Virus record (IMG/VR): IMGVR_UViG_3300025655_000220
Span: 1-28,350 of that record
From: a virus
DNA length: 28,350 bases
Direction: 5' to 3' (one strand)
Position 1 is the stretch's first letter. Each line of letters starts with the position of its first letter. The translations under genes were made by a program, and so were the position numbers. The notes under the pieces were generated by a model, which saw nothing but the letters and a program-made list of their open reading frames with translations, did no database searches and was not told the DNA's origin. This document shows, in pieces, positions 1,216 through 10,716 of this stretch.

Positions 1216-3276
1216 GTGACAGCCTATATCCTAGACGTTGAGAATACTACATGTCGTCACCACGATAAGCTACACCTCGACCCCTTCGAGCCTAGCAATA
1301 CGCTGACTATGGTTGGTATGCAGCGTGTAGATGATGGGCGACAGCTACGACTACCGTTTGACCATAGTGAAGCACAGGACATTGAGGGCACTAATCACAA
1401 GCGTATACAATCTACGCTAGATCGCTGCACATTGCTTATTGGACACAACCTACAGCACGACTTGATGTGGCTGTGGGAGAGTGGCTTTAAGTATGATGGT
1501 GAAATATACGATACCATGCTTGGTGAATACCTACTGCTGCGTGGTATGGAGGGTCTGCTATCCCTTGAGGCTTGTGCTATTCGTCGTAAGCTTCCACTGC
1601 AGAAACAAGACACACTTAAACAATACTTCAAGGAAGGAGTAACAACACGTGATATACCTCTTAGCGAGCTTAGCACCTATCTTAGCTACGATCTTGGTAC
1701 TACTCGTGAGCTATATCTTGCTCAACTTAATGATTATTCGCAAGACTCGTCGTCGTCATTAGTACCAGTACGTGACATCACTATGCAGACATGCGTTGTT
1801 CTTACTCGTATGTATTGCAATGGCTTTTCCGTAGACTTAGATGCACTGGCTGACGTTAAGCTTCTGTTCGAGACTGAGCTTGCAGATATTGAGCAGCGGC
1901 TGTATAAGCAAATCCGTAACCTCATGGGCGACACACCTATCAACCTCAACAGCCCAGAGCAGATGTCACAAGTTATCTTTAGTCGTTCTATGAATAGTAA
2001 GAAAGATTGGGCTGGATTGTTTGAGCATATCCGCACACCAGCAGAGTTCAAGGCCGCTGTTAAAGCTAATAGTTCTGCTATCTACAAGACAGTTGCATAC
2101 CAGTGCCCTACATGTGAGGGTAGGAAGTACACATACAAGACTAAAGCTAATGGCCAACCATTTGCAAAGCCTAACAGGTGCAAAGACTGTGATGCTGAGG
2201 GGTTTAAGCTTCGCAATACTACTGAGCTAGCTGGGCTTAGGTTTGACGCACCAAGTAAAGAGTGGGCATCAGCTAATGGCTTCTCTTCTGCTAAGGATAA
2301 CCTCTCCGTACTAATTACAGTTGCGATAACTAATGGTATGGAAGATGCTAAGAACTTCCTGACGGACCTACAACGTATGAATGCTGTGTCTAGCTATCTA
2401 TCCAGCTTTGTTGGTGGTATTGAGGCATATACTAAGCAAGATGGTATGCTTCACGTAGGCCTGACACAACACATCACTGCCACTGGACGCTTTAGTGGTC
2501 GTAACCCCAATATGCAAAACATGCCACGTGGTGGTACATTCCCTGTTAAAAAAGCCTTCAAGTCTCGCTGGGAAGGTGGCAAGGTTATGGAAGCTGACTT
2601 TGCACAGCTTGAGTTCCGTGTTGCTGCATTCCTAGCCCAAGACGAATTGGCTATGGAAGAGGTACGTACAGGCTTTGACGTTCACAGCTATACTGCTCAG
2701 GTTATTACTGATGCAGGTGAACCTACGACACGACATGATGCTAAGGCTCATACGTTTGCTCCGCTGTATGGTGCTACAGGACACGGCAGAACACCAGCAC
2801 AGGCTGCTTACTACACACACTTCATTGATAAGTATGTTGGCATTGCAGCATGGCATAAGCGTTTGGGTGACGAAGCCATTCGCTTTGAGAAGATTACTAT
2901 CCCTAGTGGTAGGCAGTACGGCTTCCCTGGTACTACTCGACGTAAGAACGGTACTGTTACTAACTTTACTCGCATTAAAAACTATCCAGTACAAGGTTTT
3001 GCTACTGGTGATATCGTTCCTGTTGTGCTAGTAGAGATTGATAAGCGTCTTCGTGAGGGTAACTTTCTGACGCTACTTGTTAACACCGTACATGACTCTA
3101 TTGTGTTCGATGTACACCCCATAGAGATTGATCGTATGATTACCTTTGTAGATGATATGAACCGTGATCTACACCAGATTATCCTCGGCGCTTTTGGTAT
3201 TGACTTCAATGTACCACTTCTGCTAGAAGCTAAGATAGGTGATAACTGGCTAGCACAGAAGGATGTTAAGAAATGA
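1216..3276 (+). CDS. polA: DNA polymerase I (family A) with 3'-5' exonuclease domain
   Basis: Phage replicative DNA polymerase. The GTG start at 1216 is chosen because AAGGAG lies at 1205-1210. The N-terminal proofreading domain shows Exo I (DVEN, residues 7-10), Exo II (GHNLQHD) and Exo III (YLSYDLG). The polymerase domain has motif A (DFAQLEFR, from D461), motif B (R506, K510, F514, Y518-G) and motif C (HDS, H626-D627). Between the exonuclease and motif A, around residues 297-335, is an insertion with two CxxC pairs (CPTC and CKDC) that looks like a zinc ribbon; T7 polymerase has a thioredoxin-binding insertion instead, so this insert is worth noting. All catalytic residues are present. Its stop overlaps the start of the next small gene (ATGA). 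Confidence 0.95.
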   Translation: MTAYILDVENTTCRHHDKLHLDPFEPSNTLTMVGMQRVDDGRQLRLPFDHSEAQDIEGTNHKRIQSTLDRCTLLIGHNLQHDLMWLWESGFKYDGEIYDTMLGEYLLLRGMEGLLSLEACAIRRKLPLQKQDTLKQYFKEGVTTRDIPLSELSTYLSYDLGTTRELYLAQLNDYSQDSSSSLVPVRDITMQTCVVLTRMYCNGFSVDLDALADVKLLFETELADIEQRLYKQIRNLMGDTPINLNSPEQMSQVIFSRSMNSKKDWAGLFEHIRTPAEFKAAVKANSSAIYKTVAYQCPTCEGRKYTYKTKANGQPFAKPNRCKDCDAEGFKLRNTTELAGLRFDAPSKEWASANGFSSAKDNLSVLITVAITNGMEDAKNFLTDLQRMNAVSSYLSSFVGGIEAYTKQDGMLHVGLTQHITATGRFSGRNPNMQNMPRGGTFPVKKAFKSRWEGGKVMEADFAQLEFRVAAFLAQDELAMEEVRTGFDVHSYTAQVITDAGEPTTRHDAKAHTFAPLYGATGHGRTPAQAAYYTHFIDKYVGIAAWHKRLGDEAIRFEKITIPSGRQYGFPGTTRRKNGTVTNFTRIKNYPVQGFATGDIVPVVLVEIDKRLREGNFLTLLVNTVHDSIVFDVHPIEIDRMITFVDDMNRDLHQIILGAFGIDFNVPLLLEAKIGDNWLAQKDVKK

Positions 3277-3423: not shown

Positions 3424-4344
3424 ATGAGCAACGATATCGCACTTCTCAACGGCACCTTTGAAATGGGTACAGACTTGGCAGCAATGCTAGGCTTTAAGAC
3501 GGGTGGTGGTGAACAGGCTAGCACCCTCGCAGAGCTTAAGCAGTTGTATAAGGCTGTTAAAGGTGAAATGGAACACAAAGGCAAGAAGATGGCTGTGGAA
3601 GTAATTCCAGGTGGTAGCTACTCCTTGACCCTAGCTGATGGTTCCACGGTATACTCGGATACTGCTACTGTTCGCATCTTCATGCAGCGCTACCAGTACC
3701 AACGCTATGAGAAGTTTGCAGCAGCAGTAGAAGGTAAAGACGGTAAGATGTTCCGTTCCGTTATGGCTACCAGCTTTAACGTAGGCGACTTGAAGGACAA
3801 CTACGGTGGATTTAACTGCGGGCGTCCAGGTGGTTACATTAAAGATTACGACTCTTTGACGGGTCCATTGCGTGACATTGTTAAGAATACGAAACGTGTT
3901 ATGGTTATCTTTGGTTTTGTTACATTGGACAATCCAACAGATGAAGCTGGAAATGCAGTAGACAATCCAGGCACTCAGCCGTTCTTCATGCGTATCAAAA
4001 ATGCTAAGAGCTATAAGAATGTCGAAGGCATTGCTAAAACTCTGATGAAGCAGAACCGCTTGCCTATTCAGTATAACGTCAAGTTTACGAATGACTCTGT
4101 TCCACTGCCAAACGGTGAACTGAACTTCTTCGTTGTAGTGGAGCCTCTGGCTTCTGTTGATTTGACTGCAGAAGATCAGCAGGCAGTTAAAGACTTTATG
4201 GCATGGATTGAGTTTCAGAATAGCTTTATCTTGAAGCTGTGGAGTGCAGTGCATGAATCTGATATGTCTGAAGAAGACAAAAATGTTCTGCAAAACTTTA
4301 TTCAGATTGAAGATGTTTCCGTAGAAGAACAGGAAGACATCTAA
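3424..4344 (+). CDS. Putative single-stranded DNA-binding protein
   Basis: 306-residue protein, probably the phage ssDNA-binding protein that coats unwound template. The main evidence is position (between the polymerase and two recombination nucleases, behind its own strong promoter) and the sharply acidic C-terminal tail EDVSVEEQEDI, which is typical of SSBs that recruit replication partners. The middle has many aromatic and basic residues (for example RIFMQRYQYQRYEKF near residue 83), suitable for DNA contacts. No textbook OB-fold motif could be recognised by eye. Start is ATG 3424 with AAAGGA upstream; the stop shares one base with the next ATG (TAATG). The role is an inference; it could be another abundant replication accessory protein. 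Confidence 0.5.
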   Translation: MSNDIALLNGTFEMGTDLAAMLGFKTGGGEQASTLAELKQLYKAVKGEMEHKGKKMAVEVIPGGSYSLTLADGSTVYSDTATVRIFMQRYQYQRYEKFAAAVEGKDGKMFRSVMATSFNVGDLKDNYGGFNCGRPGGYIKDYDSLTGPLRDIVKNTKRVMVIFGFVTLDNPTDEAGNAVDNPGTQPFFMRIKNAKSYKNVEGIAKTLMKQNRLPIQYNVKFTNDSVPLPNGELNFFVVVEPLASVDLTAEDQQAVKDFMAWIEFQNSFILKLWSAVHESDMSEEDKNVLQNFIQIEDVSVEEQEDI

Positions 4345-5228: not shown

Positions 5229-5407
5229 AGCACAAGCCAGGATATTACGTAAGAGAGAACCGCTATACGGAATACATCCTGCATGGACCGTATGACACCG
5301 AGCAACTAGCCAGAGACAACTTACCCAAAGATGTTGTCAAAGGGCTTACAGTAGATTGGGTAACATATTGGGTATCACAGATACATGAAACCAAAGACAC
5401 AGCGTAA
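5225..5407 (+). CDS. Small hypothetical protein (60 aa)
   Basis: Not recognised. GTG start at 5225 overlaps the nuclease stop (GTGA) and the 3' end runs 23 bases into the endonuclease I gene, so it is wedged between two recombination nucleases and probably translated by coupling. The product is polar with many aromatics (YYVRENRYTEYILHGPYDT) and then a DNLPKD segment. There is no signal peptide, membrane segment or metal-binding cysteine. The pattern of an aromatic strand followed by a helix could be a small alpha/beta fold. Confidence 0.65.
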   Translation: MKHKPGYYVRENRYTEYILHGPYDTEQLARDNLPKDVVKGLTVDWVTYWVSQIHETKDTA

Positions 5408-5834
5408 ACACGTTGTAGCTAAATATCGCAGTGGCCTCGAAAAGGAGGCTGCTGCTTTTTTGTCTCAGCATGACATTGGCTATAAGTATGAAGCTTATAC
5501 AATTGAGTGGGAAGACCTTAGCTACAGGAAGTACACACCAGACTTTGTTTTAGACAATGGCGTTATCATTGAGACTAAAGGTATGTTTGATGCAGATGAT
5601 AGGCGCAAACACCTTGAGGTAAAAAAGCAACACCCTGAGCTAGATATCAGATTTGTTTTCAGTAATGCAAAAGGAAAGCTTTACAAAGGATCAAAGACCT
5701 GCTATAGCAAATGGTGTGAGGATAACGGGTTTCAGTGGGCGCATAGAGTAATTCCACAATCATGGCTACTAGAAACTGGTACACCTATTACAGATAACGT
5801 AAAACTTAAAACACAAAGGAGAGACAAGCTATGA
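5385..5834 (+). CDS. Endonuclease I (Holliday-junction resolvase, T7 gp3 family)
   Basis: Structure-specific nuclease that cuts four-way junctions and branched replication intermediates and, in T7, helps degrade host DNA. The 149-residue length matches T7 gp3. The catalytic set is complete: E19 (in RSGLEKEAA), D53 (in YTPDFVLDNG), E63 and K65 (in VIIETKG), matching E20, D55, E65 and K67 of T7 endonuclease I. The start at ATG 5385 lies inside the preceding small gene, and the stop overlaps the next small gene (ATGA). It is one of two junction-type nucleases here, the other being the endonuclease VII-like protein at 10717. Confidence 0.92.
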   Translation: MKPKTQRKHVVAKYRSGLEKEAAAFLSQHDIGYKYEAYTIEWEDLSYRKYTPDFVLDNGVIIETKGMFDADDRRKHLEVKKQHPELDIRFVFSNAKGKLYKGSKTCYSKWCEDNGFQWAHRVIPQSWLLETGTPITDNVKLKTQRRDKL

Positions 5835-7454: not shown

Positions 7455-9437
7455 ATGAGCATTCGGAACACTAAGGTTTCTGCACGAGCAGAGATTATTA
7501 CACGGCGTACCTATAACCGTCCAAAAGACGAGGCGGGTACTGTATTTGAGACTTGGGAAGAGACTATTGATCGCGTTATTGGGCACCAAGAGTGGCTGTG
7601 GAAACGCGCAAAGAAGGCTGACCTTAGTGTACAAGACTATCAAGAATTGGCTAAGCTGCGTAAGCTTATGGTAGAGCGTAAGGCTACCGTATCTGGGCGT
7701 ACACTGTGGCTTGGTGGTACTACGGTAGCGCAGACACGTGAGGCTTCTCAGTTCAACTGTAGCTTCGGTGAGATTGAGACGGTGCACGATGTAGTTGACT
7801 CGCTGTGGCTGCTGTTGCAGGGCTGTGGTGTAGGATTTAAGCCAGTTGTTGGTACACTTAATGGCTTCACTAAGCCTGTATCTGTTGAAACTGTACGCTC
7901 TACTCGCACCAATCGTGGGTATGAGAATAACACCAGCCACTTCTACGTACGCGATGGCTTGAAGGTGTGGGAACTGCGTATCGGTGATAGTGCAGAGGCA
8001 TGGGCTAAGGCTGCAGGCAAGCTGTTGGCAATGAAAGAGCCTGTTGATATTGTTGTGCTTAACTACCAAGAAATCCGTCCTGCAGGTGAACGCCTCAAAG
8101 GCTACGGCTGGATTAGCTCTGGTGATGAACAAATCCATGTAGCATTTAAAGCTATCTGTGATATCCTTAGTAATCGTGCAGGAAAGCTTCTGCGTCAGAT
8201 GGATATCCTAGACATTGAGAACTGGCTTGGTACTATCTTGTCGTCTCGCCGCTCTGCAGAGATTGCTGTTATGGACGTTGAGAGCCAAGAGATTGATGAC
8301 TTCATTGTAGCTAAGCGTGACTACTGGCTGCATAACAACCACCACCGAACACAGAGTAACAACTCTATTCTGTTCCACCACAAGCCATCTAAGTGGGAGT
8401 TGCTTTATATCTTCCAGAAAATCCAAGAAGCGGGTGGCTCTGAGCCAGGGTTTATCAATGCTGAGGCAGCTATTAAGCGGGCACCTTGGTTTAAGGGTGT
8501 TAATCCTTGTGCTGAAATTTTGCTGGGTAACAAGAGTTTCTGTAACCTCGTCGAGGTAGACCTTGGTAAGTTTAATGGTAACGAAGTAGCACTGTATGAA
8601 GCTATGTATCTTGTTGGTCGTGCCAACTATCGTCAGACTTGTGTGAACCTTGACGATGGTGTGTTGCAGCGTTCTTGGCATGAGCTTAATGAGTTCTTGC
8701 GTTTGTGTGGTGTTGGTGCTACTGGTATTGTACGCTGGGAACACGTAGATAAAGCTATTGCATGGGCTGCTATTCGTGAGTACGCAGTAAGTGGTGCTAA
8801 CTCTATGGCAGATGAACTCGGTCTTCCACGTGCTAAGCTGGTGACTACGGTTAAGCCTTCTGGTACACTTGGTAAGATTATGGATACTACGGAGGGTGTT
8901 CACAAGCCTCTTGGTAAGTACATCTTCAACAATGTTAAGTTCGGCAAATATGATCCCTTGATCCCACAGCTTCGTGATGCTAACTATCACATCTTTGAAC
9001 TTGACTCCATGAAAGATGCAGTGTTTGTTCGTCTTCCTGCTTCATATGAAGATGTTAAGTTTGACATTGTAGATGGTGTTGAAGTTAACCTTGAGTCTGC
9101 TGTAGCACAGCTTGATCGCTATAAGCTTATCATGGAAAACTACGTAGACCACAACTGCTCTGTGACTATCAGCTACGACCCATCTGAGGTTCCTGCTATT
9201 GTTGATTGGCTTAGTGCTAATTGGGATACTTATGTGGGTGTGTCATTCATCTATCGTAATGATCCAACTAAGACAGCTAAAGACCTTGGCTACGAATACC
9301 TGCCACAAGAGGTTGTAACTAAGGAAGTATTTGAAGCATATACAGCCACCCTTGGTATGCTGGACTTGGATAGAGCTAATACTCTCGAAGAGCTTGACCA
9401 AGAAGGTTGTGCTACAGGTGCTTGCCCAATTCGATAG
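7455..9437 (+). CDS. nrdJ: Class II (cobalamin-dependent) ribonucleotide reductase
   Basis: Adenosylcobalamin-dependent ribonucleoside triphosphate reductase, making dNTPs without oxygen or a second subunit. At 660 residues it is slightly shorter than the monomeric Lactobacillus leichmannii enzyme (739). All five functional cysteines line up with identical spacing: C102 (in QFNCSF; partner of the substrate-side pair), C352 in NPCAEI (thiyl radical site, with E354), C363 (11 residues later, as C408/C419 in RTPR), and the C-terminal pair C652/C657 (in GCATGACPIR) that passes electrons from glutaredoxin or thioredoxin. The GTLG and LLQGCGVGF segments are also typical. ATG 7455 has AAGGGA upstream. 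The glutaredoxin gene follows directly. The phage depends on host cobalamin to use this enzyme. Confidence 0.95.
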   Translation: MSIRNTKVSARAEIITRRTYNRPKDEAGTVFETWEETIDRVIGHQEWLWKRAKKADLSVQDYQELAKLRKLMVERKATVSGRTLWLGGTTVAQTREASQFNCSFGEIETVHDVVDSLWLLLQGCGVGFKPVVGTLNGFTKPVSVETVRSTRTNRGYENNTSHFYVRDGLKVWELRIGDSAEAWAKAAGKLLAMKEPVDIVVLNYQEIRPAGERLKGYGWISSGDEQIHVAFKAICDILSNRAGKLLRQMDILDIENWLGTILSSRRSAEIAVMDVESQEIDDFIVAKRDYWLHNNHHRTQSNNSILFHHKPSKWELLYIFQKIQEAGGSEPGFINAEAAIKRAPWFKGVNPCAEILLGNKSFCNLVEVDLGKFNGNEVALYEAMYLVGRANYRQTCVNLDDGVLQRSWHELNEFLRLCGVGATGIVRWEHVDKAIAWAAIREYAVSGANSMADELGLPRAKLVTTVKPSGTLGKIMDTTEGVHKPLGKYIFNNVKFGKYDPLIPQLRDANYHIFELDSMKDAVFVRLPASYEDVKFDIVDGVEVNLESAVAQLDRYKLIMENYVDHNCSVTISYDPSEVPAIVDWLSANWDTYVGVSFIYRNDPTKTAKDLGYEYLPQEVVTKEVFEAYTATLGMLDLDRANTLEELDQEGCATGACPIR

Positions 9438-9445
9438 GAGACAAC

Positions 9446-9685
9446 ATGTACTATATCATCACTAAAGATAACTGTATCTACTGCGATAAAGCTAAGATGT
9501 TTCTTATTGATAACATGGAAGCCTATCAAACTATTGACTATAAAGATAATGTGTTTATGAAGAAGCTTATGTTTAAAGCTGAACTCGTGACACTGCCACA
9601 GATTTGGCATCATGATGAATACGTAGGTGGTTACAATGAACTTCTTTCGTATCACAGCTATTTAGATGTTGACTTAATTCTGTAA
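9446..9685 (+). CDS. Glutaredoxin
   Basis: Small thiol-disulfide carrier, most likely the electron donor for the RNR encoded 8 bases upstream. ATG 9446 with TAGGAGA upstream is the right start; a longer frame from 9407 would overlap the RNR end and lacks a ribosome site. The 79-residue product has the active site C10-I-Y-C13 at the end of the first strand, the cis-proline motif TLPQIW (P51) and the glutathione-binding GGYNEL (G61-G62) near the C-terminus. Full-length, with nothing missing compared with short bacterial and phage glutaredoxins. Confidence 0.92.
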   Translation: MYYIITKDNCIYCDKAKMFLIDNMEAYQTIDYKDNVFMKKLMFKAELVTLPQIWHHDEYVGGYNELLSYHSYLDVDLIL

Positions 9686-9697
9686 CTGTGCTATATA
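9669..9697 (+). promoter_or_regulatory. Probable sigma70 promoter for the tRNA region
   Basis: TTGACT (9669-9674), a 17-base spacer and TATATA (9692-9697) lie at the end of the glutaredoxin gene, about 40 bases before tRNA-Met. Five of six bases match at -35 and four or five at -10. Transcription would start near 9704 and run through tRNA-Met, antisense across the HNH gene, and on to tRNA-Thr. The sequence between, to 9737, has no gene; a weak GTGCG/CGCAC hairpin lies at about 9708-9727. Confidence 0.55.
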
Positions 9698-9737
9698 GCT
9701 AAAGTGGGGTGCGGCACTTAAAACGCACAACCTTATC

Positions 9738-9813
9738 GCTAGAGTAGCTTAGTGGCTAAAGCCAGATGCTCATAACGTCCAGATCGTGGGTTCGAGTCCC
9801 TCCTCTAGCACCA
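9738..9813 (+). tRNA. tRNA-Met (CAT anticodon)
   Basis: Cloverleaf with a perfect 7-bp acceptor stem (GCTAGAG/CTCTAGC), discriminator A and encoded CCA (9811-9813). D stem GCTT/AAGC; anticodon loop CTCATAA giving CAT; T arm with loop TTCGAGT. The anticodon stem has an A-C mismatch at its first pair and the T stem one T-T mismatch, as is common in phage tRNAs. A CAT anticodon can also be an isoleucine tRNA after lysidine modification; the sequence alone does not separate the two. Confidence 0.88.
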
Positions 9814-9814
9814 A

Positions 9815-9841
9815 GCCCCCTTAGCTCAACTGGATAGAGCA
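9815..9841 (+). pseudogene. 5' half of a broken tRNA (acceptor and D arm only)
   Basis: One base after tRNA-Met comes GCCCCCT, TA, then a textbook D arm (GCTC, loop AACTGGATA, GAGC). After position 9841 the tRNA pattern stops: no anticodon stem, T arm or matching AGGGGGC acceptor strand follows in the next several hundred bases. The 5' sequence is typical of arginine or isoleucine tRNAs. From 9821 it is also read on the other strand as the last codons of the HNH gene. The best explanation is a tRNA gene split by insertion of that endonuclease gene. Confidence 0.7.
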
Positions 9842-10285
9842 ATTTCTAGGTAGATTATCATATTCCCAATGACAGTTTGGGCAAAGAAGTTTTAGGTTGT
9901 CTCTATCGTTTATTTGTGATATAGTTGCAGTTAGTGGAAAGTCTCCTATAGCTTTTATGTGACATACTTCTACGTGCTTATCATAACTACAAAAATCACA
10001 TACTTGTGGTTCATTCTTAACAGAAGCCCTAGCTCTACTACGTATTAACGCATATGCACTGGACTTGTGGTGTTTATGATACGTAGCCTCTTCTAGGGTA
10101 AAGTCTCTTATAGTAGAACATGCATCGCATTTACTTTTTCTCGCACTAATTACTGTATCACAAGCACTACATGTGCGTAACCTTGCCTTCCTTTTAGGTA
10201 CTTTATTAGTCTCTTTTGCAGCACAAGACCTAGAACAAAATTTAGGGTTTGTAGTGTCTTTAAGGCAATAAGCACACTTCGTCAT
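9821..10285 (-). CDS. HNH homing-type endonuclease inserted at a tRNA
   Basis: Free-standing HNH endonuclease (154 aa), against the direction of its neighbours. It has two N-terminal zinc-knuckle pairs (C4/C7/C17/C21 and C39/C42/C53/C56) and a C-terminal HNH domain: C96/C99, VCHIKAIGDF (H109), N130 in DRDNLKLL and CPNCH (C135/C138/H139). ATG at 10285 has CAGGAG upstream, and a minus-strand promoter lies further up. The last seven residues (NCSIQLS) and the stop codon are read from the antisense of the tRNA 5' half at 9821-9841 and the few bases beyond it. Its zinc-knuckle start resembles that of the second HNH gene at 12316. Nothing about it suggests a phage housekeeping role. Confidence 0.85.
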   Translation of the reverse strand: MTKCAYCLKDTTNPKFCSRSCAAKETNKVPKRKARLRTCSACDTVISARKSKCDACSTIRDFTLEEATYHKHHKSSAYALIRSRARASVKNEPQVCDFCSYDKHVEVCHIKAIGDFPLTATISQINDRDNLKLLCPNCHWEYDNLPRNCSIQLS

Positions 10286-10299
10286 GGTATAACTCCTGA

Positions 10300-10389
10300 G
10301 GTTCTCGCCCCCACATTGGTCTTCTAAACCATTGGCATTATAATTAGTGGGATGGACGCCCTGAGGTTCAATTCCTCCGAGGACTTCCA
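10300..10389 (+). other. tRNA-like element with T arm, acceptor and CCA but abnormal core
   Basis: Ninety bases between the HNH start and its promoter. The ends look like a tRNA: GGTTCTC (10300-10306) can pair with GAGGACT (10379-10385) using two G-U pairs, followed by T-CCA, and a T arm GAGG-TTCAATT-CCTC sits just inside. A hairpin TGGT-CTTCTAA-ACCA around 10317-10331 looks like an arginine TCT anticodon arm. But no D arm is present and about 29 bases separate the anticodon-like arm from the T arm. A 10-base direct repeat (CCTGAGGTTC) occurs at both ends. It could be a rearranged tRNA remnant or, read on the minus strand, the structured leader of the HNH gene. Confidence 0.45.
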
Positions 10390-10391
10390 GA

Positions 10392-10419
10392 ATTATACCA
10401 TACTTGAAACTTTAGTCAA
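10392..10419 (-). promoter_or_regulatory. Minus-strand sigma70 promoter for the HNH gene
   Basis: On the minus strand TTGACT (10414-10419), a 16-base spacer and a consensus TATAAT (10392-10397) preceded by TGG (extended -10). Transcription would begin near 10385 and give a leader of about 100 bases, folded as the antisense of the tRNA-like element, before the HNH ATG at 10285. This makes the HNH gene independently expressed, as expected of a mobile endonuclease gene. An 8-base inverted repeat, TGGTATAA at 10284-10291 with TTATACCA at 10393-10400, flanks the leader. Confidence 0.6.
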
Positions 10420-10444: not shown

Positions 10445-10521
10445 GCCCTAGTAGCTCAGTTGGTAGAGCAGACGCCTTGTAAGCGTATAGGTCGGGAGTT
10501 CGAGTCTCTCCAGGGGCACCA
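10445..10521 (+). tRNA. tRNA-Thr (TGT anticodon)
   Basis: Complete cloverleaf: acceptor GCCCTAG with CAGGGGC (one G-U and one mismatch), D stem GCTC/GAGC around AGTTGGTA, anticodon arm ACGC-CTTGTAA-GCGT giving anticodon TGT (threonine ACA), T arm GGGAG-TTCGAGT-CTCTC and encoded CCA. It would be read from the promoter at 9669. It is the second intact tRNA of a small cluster that also holds tRNA-Met and the broken tRNA. Confidence 0.88.
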
Positions 10522-10716
10522 ATAAAACATGGTTCTAGTTATACGGTATACGTGTAGTTGTTCACCGTTACCTCGCTTATGGTATTCGACTGTAGTAACG
10601 CCATAGGTCAGGCGGCTTAAGTGTCCGTTTTCTACATCCGTGATGAACACCGATACCACGGAAGAGTATCGCCGTACCTGGTAAGCGGCACAACGTAACA
10701 ACATAAAGTTTACACA
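10522..10716 (+). other. Non-coding gap between tRNA-Thr and the endonuclease VII-like gene
   Basis: No gene is supported here. Plus-strand frames are short and lack ribosome sites. A minus-strand frame runs through it into the tRNA but is rejected because it includes antisense tRNA sequence and has no ribosome site. Base composition is a little richer in G+C than the flanks. It may be remains of a deleted gene or an untranslated leader; there is no clear terminator. Confidence 0.4.

Follow-up and report, generated by a model that had tools for sequence, protein, structure and literature searches.

A predicted non-cloverleaf tRNA-Arg(UCU) beside an HNH endonuclease gene that appears to have truncated a standard tRNA-Arg gene in a phage

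Introduction

When an endonuclease gene runs into a phage tRNA gene and only the 5′ half of that tRNA is left, what is the tRNA-like piece that lies on the other side of the intruder? The question is raised by a locus in a virus record of 28,350 bases (the window, meaning the whole stretch of DNA analysed). The genes for glutaredoxin and endonuclease VII flank the locus, and the ribonucleotide reductase of the phage shares 67% identity with those of SIO1-type podoviruses (Zobellviridae, Cobavirinae). An earlier note had described it as a tRNA gene broken by an HNH gene on the opposite strand, and had read the far-side piece as the likely product of rearrangement or tRNA chimerism.

The broken tRNA-Arg gene

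ARAGORN and Rfam call just two tRNAs at this locus, a standard tRNA-Met(CAU) at 9738–9813 (plus strand; Rfam tRNA 58.2 bits) and a standard tRNA-Thr(UGU) at 10445–10521 (plus strand; 57 bits). The tRNA-Met ends one base before the 5′ tRNA half at 9815–9841 (plus strand), which holds an acceptor 5′ strand and a D arm and, as the earlier note had said, is not followed by a 3′ half. The same note had proposed looking in relatives for an intact tRNA-Arg between tRNA-Met and tRNA-Thr, and the phage locus L004, whose reductase is 99% identical in amino acids, provides one: it has tRNA-Met, an intact tRNA-Arg(tct) at 5281–5357 and tRNA-Thr, with no HNH open reading frame. Nucleotide homology between the window and L004 extends over 9400–9842 (95.5%), is interrupted, and starts again from 10442 (90.3%). 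The half shares this homology, as well as its slot and spacing, with the intact L004 gene (by eye, 23 of 27 bases agree), and is thus read as what remains of a standard tRNA-Arg(UCU), about its first 26 bases. Since this relative is intact and lacks the HNH gene, the comparison argues that an HNH-bearing cassette truncated the standard tRNA-Arg(UCU) of the window and left only its 5′ half, which bears out the claim of a broken tRNA-Arg gene. The window, as the occupied site, and L004, as the empty one, would then be a natural replacement pair.

At the right-hand junction, a ten-base match, ACCATTACTT, gives a weak hint that the old CCA end marks the end of the cassette, 36 of 1000 shuffles giving an equally good match. 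No tRNA was called in the region examined in the named relatives SIO1 and ICBM1, so these two do not polarise the truncation. A further IMG/VR record (L002/L050/L051/L071) has the same arrangement at 99.9–100% identity and may not be an independent assembly.

Two other stretches of this region deserve mention. The non-coding interval between tRNA-Thr and the endonuclease VII gene (10522–10716) is ~90% conserved with L004; a structured RNA there is unsupported, as single-sequence folding gave z of 0.27 and 0.40, no stabler than shuffles. In L004, the stretch after the intact tRNA-Arg (5358–5457) is itself tRNA-like, with a T-loop-like sequence, long complementary flanks (ATTACTT...AAGTAAT) and a weak score of 13.8 bits with the R1 model discussed below.

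A complete gene on the far side

The features that the earlier note listed for the far-side piece are all there: an anticodon-like TCT arm, whose loop reads CTTCTAA, a T arm and CCA. Its GAGGACT indeed does not pair with the GCCCCCT of the half. What had gone unused is its own 5′ end: GGTTCTC at 10300–10306 pairs with GAGGACT at 10379–10385 in 7/7 positions (four Watson-Crick and three G-U; family columns 2–8/83–89). Because the three G-U pairs would become A-C mismatches in a minus-strand RNA, the plus-strand RNA is likely the product. We conclude from these pairings, and from the relatives described below, that 10300–10389 (plus strand) is a complete predicted gene, CCA included, of a conserved family of non-cloverleaf tRNA-Arg, here of subtype B and with the anticodon UCU, rather than the missing half. 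The R1 model scores it at 77.7 bits (E 2.4e-19), the window being itself among the 39 training rows. The note's view that simple insertion does not explain everything therefore stands, while its reading of the piece as a chimera or rearranged fragment gives way to an element with its own acceptor stem and a conserved family.

The strands of this element follow an unusual order. Only nine bases separate the acceptor from the anticodon stem, which leaves no room for a D hairpin. The 5′ strand of a D-stem equivalent, CCCAC at 10310–10314, pairs with GTGGG at 10347–10351 (99.0% of cells paired) and so encloses the anticodon arm at 10316–10332, with its loop CTTCTAA at 10321–10327 and the anticodon TCT at 10323–10325. 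A pseudoknot strand, GGC at 10334–10336, pairs with GCC at 10358–10360 (column pair 37–63 in subtype B). A D-loop-like GGA at 10354–10356, equivalent to G18-G19-A20, follows the helix and is found in 39/39 rows of alignment A2, a motif that the search pattern demanded; the T arm comes last (10362–10378, loop TTCAATT). Counted against a functional tRNA are the U-U at the outermost pair of the anticodon stem and a discriminator that is U in place of the usual A/G73.

An imperfect inverted repeat surrounds the element (10284–10401, plus strand; arms 10284–10307 and 10378–10401, 79% complementary). It lengthens the acceptor stem by ~9 bp and contains the −10 box and the start codon of the HNH gene. 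The folded region has a z of −3.24; by eye, no counterpart of the repeat was seen at the two HNH-bearing loci L052 and L089.

Three other identities were considered for the piece and rejected. It is not one of two halves of a single tRNA, since the acceptors do not pair and the piece has its own 5′ strand. An interrupting intron, of group I or another type, has no Rfam match in the window. A tRNA-Sec would carry the anticodon UCA; the anticodon here is UCU, and the RF01852 score is 25.6 bits against a cut-off of 47.

A family in two subtypes

BLAST and inspection revealed similar uncalled elements upstream of HNH relatives in L052 and in the Erwinia phage L089, and further ones in Streptomyces, Felixounavirus, Acinetobacter and Melvirus (Zobellviridae) phages. 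A pattern built from eight such elements matched at least 120 stretches in a scan of viral contigs, the scan frequencies being lower bounds. Among the matches listed, the acceptor pairs 7/7 in 114/120 and 6/7 in the other six, where a 7/7 acceptor at the best of 20 spacings has, by our estimate, a chance of roughly 2%; CCA is encoded in 84 of the 120. Members fall into subtype A, with 12 nt from acceptor to anticodon loop and a 3-bp D-stem equivalent, and subtype B, to which the window belongs, mostly with 14–16 nt and a 5-bp D-stem equivalent. With R1, three subtype B members score 77.7–86.8 bits and four of subtype A 33.9–44.8, standard tRNAs reaching at most 27.1.

Existing tools and annotations mostly pass these elements over. 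ARAGORN calls overlap the new form at 6 of 217 places, and the Rfam RF00005 cut-off is reached in 5/20 loci tested and missed at 10300–10389 in the window. One query matched 242 phage records (the listed ones include Felixounavirus, Justusliebigvirus, Klebsiella and jumbo phages) and a second 344, mostly of Vibrio; at the listed matches the annotation is mostly absent or ‘hypothetical protein’, with a few cases of ‘tRNA-OTHER’.

Outside phages, a housekeeping bacterial tRNA was considered and rejected: many of the bacterial carriers are tRNA arrays on MAG contigs and only 5/60 genomes of one family carry the new form, which therefore looks mobile. Archaeal sequences that match this pattern resemble intron-containing standard tRNA-Arg genes. 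Two loci are recorded here as separate observations. In the Felixounavirus isolate heid (MN850577.1, L093), the start of an annotated HNH gene (1540–1938) overlaps an unannotated non-cloverleaf tRNA of subtype A (1495–1573), so that this start has probably been called too early. In L162, the phage tRNA region contains a group I intron (2556–2760; Rfam 55.2 bits) at a distance of ~0.75 kb from a non-cloverleaf tRNA.

Evidence for the fold

The D-stem equivalent was examined at fixed offsets, without any alignment, in 41 subtype B and 60 subtype A sequences, excluding 19 of 120 distinct members (spacing 13, 15 or 16); one match judged false, L149, is left out of this and later counts. The helix is fully paired in 40/41 of subtype B (shuffle maximum 16) and 43/60 of subtype A (maximum 22), and at 13 other offsets full pairing occurs in none of subtype B and in at most four of subtype A. 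When the GGA was dropped from the pattern, two of 108 sequences were discarded for poor acceptors, and 29 of the 106 kept are without the motif needed for the stem count, which gave 76/77.

MAFFT alignments of 39 subtype B and 40 subtype A sequences give the same picture. With no structure supplied, the top 15 of 15 column pairs by mutual information in subtype A are stem pairs of the proposed fold, as are the top 10 of 10 in subtype B, including the pseudoknot pair 37–63, the 11th being an off-register acceptor pair; the pairs ranked first come from the acceptor, the D-stem equivalent, the anticodon arm and the T arm. RNAalifold arrives at this nested fold as well. In the named structure, 88.3% (B) and 96.9% (A) of cells hold standard pairs, against ~65% in shuffles, and its covariation is 0.829 against 0.225 shuffled in subtype A and 0.644 against 0.190 in subtype B. 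Neither mutual information nor RNAalifold gave column pairs for a D hairpin between the acceptor and the anticodon arm. The extra helix of subtype B, which crosses the D-stem, has at least three contiguous Watson-Crick pairs in 35 of 47 distinct strand pairs (shuffle mean 11.3, maximum 23); the same pseudoknot was sought in subtype A and not found (2/39). Shared ancestry inflates such counts, and the distinct pair types and the unsupervised result rest on more than counts. On this comparative evidence, the predicted architecture is one in which the D-stem encloses the anticodon arm, the D-loop-like GGA follows it and the D hairpin is absent, with a pseudoknot in subtype B.

Amino acid identity

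An anticodon-free descriptor run over 2.14 Mb of loci returned 83 distinct matches, of which 79 read TCT and three ACG, TCG or CCT, once each and all for Arg, while the last was judged false; on reversed and on shuffled sequence it returned none. Because those loci had mostly been picked with the TCT pattern, forms lacking C35 were scanned separately in viral contigs, with two matches in subtype A (L257, which is real, and one judged false) and one in subtype B (L375). The L257 element (1726–1802, plus strand) has the anticodon UAU for an Ile codon, and that of L375 (6061–6145, minus strand; R1 52.9 bits) has GUA for a Tyr codon. Arginine is thus not universal in the family, and these two appear to be rare re-uses of the scaffold for other codons.

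The elements of arginine tRNAs are given as A20, C35, U/G36 and A/G73, with A20 as the main determinant in bacteria (PMC9976931). In the subtype A scan that did not demand GGA, an A follows GG in 104 of 106 good members among the matches listed. The discriminator is A or G in 55/60 of subtype A and 31/60 of subtype B, and U in 27/60 of the latter. Judged by these positions, arginine anticodons and A20 are kept nearly throughout, and the discriminator fits arginine in subtype A and often does not in subtype B. We infer that the non-cloverleaf tRNA is transcribed, processed, charged by ArgRS and used to decode AGA.

Large tRNA arrays are consistent with such a role. Among distinct loci with at least 12 ARAGORN tRNAs, 35 hold the new form only, 2 both forms, 5 the standard form only and 4 neither, a comparison biased by the fact that loci had been picked for one tRNA form or for HNH. 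In the arrays of L235 (27 tRNAs) and L244 (35), the new form is within the array and a standard Arg(UCU) is absent. The tRNA counts of many phages, including laboratory phages of E. coli, would then miss their AGA tRNA, which would affect work on codon compensation and on tRNA-targeting defence.

The HNH gene and its neighbours

The HNH gene (9821–10285, minus strand) encodes 154 amino acids, matches PF13391 (HNH_2) with an E of 1.4e-6, above the curated cut-off, and aligns with its relatives in alignment A1. Its last seven residues (NCSIQLS) and stop are read antisense within the tRNA half, as the earlier note had pointed out. The nearest relative, in L052, ends WEYDNL; the frame in the window continues into the antisense tRNA and adds PRNCSIQLS. 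A sigma70-like promoter pattern faces the gene (10392–10419, minus strand; TTGACT-16-TATAAT, 11/12, with TG ahead of the second hexamer). It is a pattern match only, the sole 11/12 site in a region where three sites were found against 2.8 expected.

A tRNA-Arg(UCU) of either form lies within 55 nt of the HNH gene or overlaps it in 14 of 21 HNH loci, where tRNA-Arg(UCU) makes up 15 of 161 tRNAs; the 21, all chosen by HNH homology, are a set of 20 plus Erwinia phage Ep030, and include near copies (L055–L057, L059/L063, L061/L062). The HNH gene is 47 nt from the new tRNA in L052 and 9 nt in L089, and L115 has an HNH gene of the family on both sides of it. Seen from the tRNA, 12/120 members among the matches listed have an HNH gene of this family at most 1.5 kb away, 11 at ~100 nt or less. 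The two genes thus come together often, the link is local, and the new tRNA is independent of the HNH gene. We infer that the HNH protein would cleave tRNA-Arg genes and take part in homing.

Other HNH relatives also touch tRNA sequence. In L055 (2992–3456), L058, L059, L060 and L063, the stop codon is a TAG within the 5′ end of a same-strand standard tRNA-Arg(UCU). Relatives in L067 (3055–3666) and L068 (2959–3570) have an extra C-terminal part whose tail resembles an antisense tRNA reading; that of L068 overlaps a tRNA-Lys, and no tRNA is called at that place in L067. In L064, the stretch 3′ of the HNH gene (3441–3650) resembles, by eye, an antisense tRNA-Leu 3′ half and a group I intron core.

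Competing explanations

Taken together, we consider it highly probable that 10300–10389 is a real AGA-reading non-cloverleaf tRNA-Arg that came with or next to the HNH gene, that the cassette cut short the resident tRNA-Arg(UCU) and left its 5′ half, and that the new tRNA supplies the lost function. The D-stem would be rebuilt from one strand before and one after the anticodon arm, with the GGA moved between it and the T arm. As in the three-dimensional structure of a normal tRNA, the D-stem equivalent would prolong the anticodon stem, and this continuous hairpin could still stack under the acceptor/T helix. Since the GGA follows the D-stem equivalent it could still reach the T loop, so that G18-G19-A20 may meet both the T loop and ArgRS, and an L shape may persist by a different path of the strand. 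Acceptance of such a form is plausible because HisRS, EF-Tu and the ribosome accept even a D-armless tRNA, as an E. coli study found (PMC11551756).

In the reading closest to the earlier note, the piece would be a standard tRNA that has decayed or carries an intron, or else the other half of the broken gene. This would account for the tRNA-like arms, the absent D arm and the broken half across the HNH gene, and is nevertheless extremely improbable: the piece has its own fully paired acceptor strand, the same fold recurs with compensatory changes in more than 100 relatives, 108 of the 120 listed members have no HNH of the family within 1.5 kb, and the window has no Rfam group I intron. A tRNA-shaped RNA with a role other than decoding, whether as a decoy against host defences that cut tRNAs, in regulation or as a signal for processing, is also improbable, if less so. 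Escape from tRNA-targeting defences is reported for phage tRNAs (PMC10264068; PMC11555353), U73 is common in subtype B, and the window RNA is antisense to the HNH leader within an inverted repeat; a decoy, however, need not keep arginine anticodons, A20 and CCA all together, and the new form occupies the place of the missing Arg(UCU) in tRNA arrays.

The history could also have been different without changing what the tRNA is. The non-cloverleaf tRNA and the HNH gene may have arrived separately, with truncation by drift once the standard tRNA had become dispensable, a course compatible with a decoding tRNA. The many members with no neighbouring HNH of the family speak for it, as does L090, of the same virus family (Zobellviridae), which has the new tRNA and no such HNH; a single junction nevertheless marks both the 3′ end of the HNH gene and the break in the tRNA, two thirds of the loci with HNH relatives have the gene abutting tRNA-Arg(UCU), of one form or the other, and in L052 and L089 the two genes are close neighbours, so we regard separate arrival as unlikely, though it deserves real weight. 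Beyond the joint arrival of tRNA and HNH gene favoured above, a wider proposal is offered tentatively, at somewhat less than even confidence: functional non-cloverleaf tRNAs, partly pseudoknotted, may be widespread in phages and work on unmodified bacterial ribosomes, and the one in the window may be the immune half of a homing cassette, in which the HNH protein would destroy standard tRNA-Arg(UCU) genes and the re-wired gene, free of the target layout, would keep AGA decoding, the scaffold being occasionally re-used (UAU, GUA).

Comparison with known systems

According to a 2024 paper, all known bacterial tRNAs are cloverleaves and arm-lacking tRNAs are restricted to mitochondria (PMC11551756), and the word phage is absent from the main text of a 2020 review of non-canonical tRNAs (PMC7609411). 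We found no earlier description of a non-cloverleaf phage tRNA-Arg in open-access full texts, a body outside which most subscription journals lie. The all-cloverleaf rule would be broken by a large natural family whose strands follow another order and whose fold is maintained by covariation in phages of Enterobacteriaceae, Vibrio, Acinetobacter, Streptomyces and uncultured hosts. Such a family would also reveal which share of the tRNA fold is really required by ArgRS, EF-Tu and the ribosome, and would add a scaffold for orthogonal tRNA design.

The new form shares with standard bacterial tRNA-Arg(UCU) the 7-bp acceptor stem, the UCU anticodon arm, the T arm, the encoded CCA and G18-G19-A20. 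It differs in lacking the D hairpin, in a D-stem that encloses the anticodon arm with the D-loop 3′ of it, and in the pseudoknot of subtype B. The absent D hairpin and the short connector before the anticodon arm recall D-armless mitochondrial tRNAs (e.g., tRNA-Ser AGY) and the engineered mini HisT of E. coli; unlike a tRNA with no D-stem at all, the new form keeps a covarying D-stem-equivalent helix and the GGA in another order, and it occurs in phages, which use bacterial translation. Altered stem lengths are shared with tRNA-Sec, the best sub-threshold Rfam match, and with allo-tRNAs (8/4, 9/3), whereas those retain the cloverleaf order with a D hairpin.

Small endonuclease genes in phage tRNA regions are familiar from T4 SegB and other free-standing homing endonucleases. 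The HNH gene of the window is likewise a small endonuclease gene placed in a tRNA region; it differs in being of the HNH_2 type, in abutting tRNA-Arg(UCU) and in relatives that sometimes lie beside a non-cloverleaf tRNA, and its role in homing is putative.
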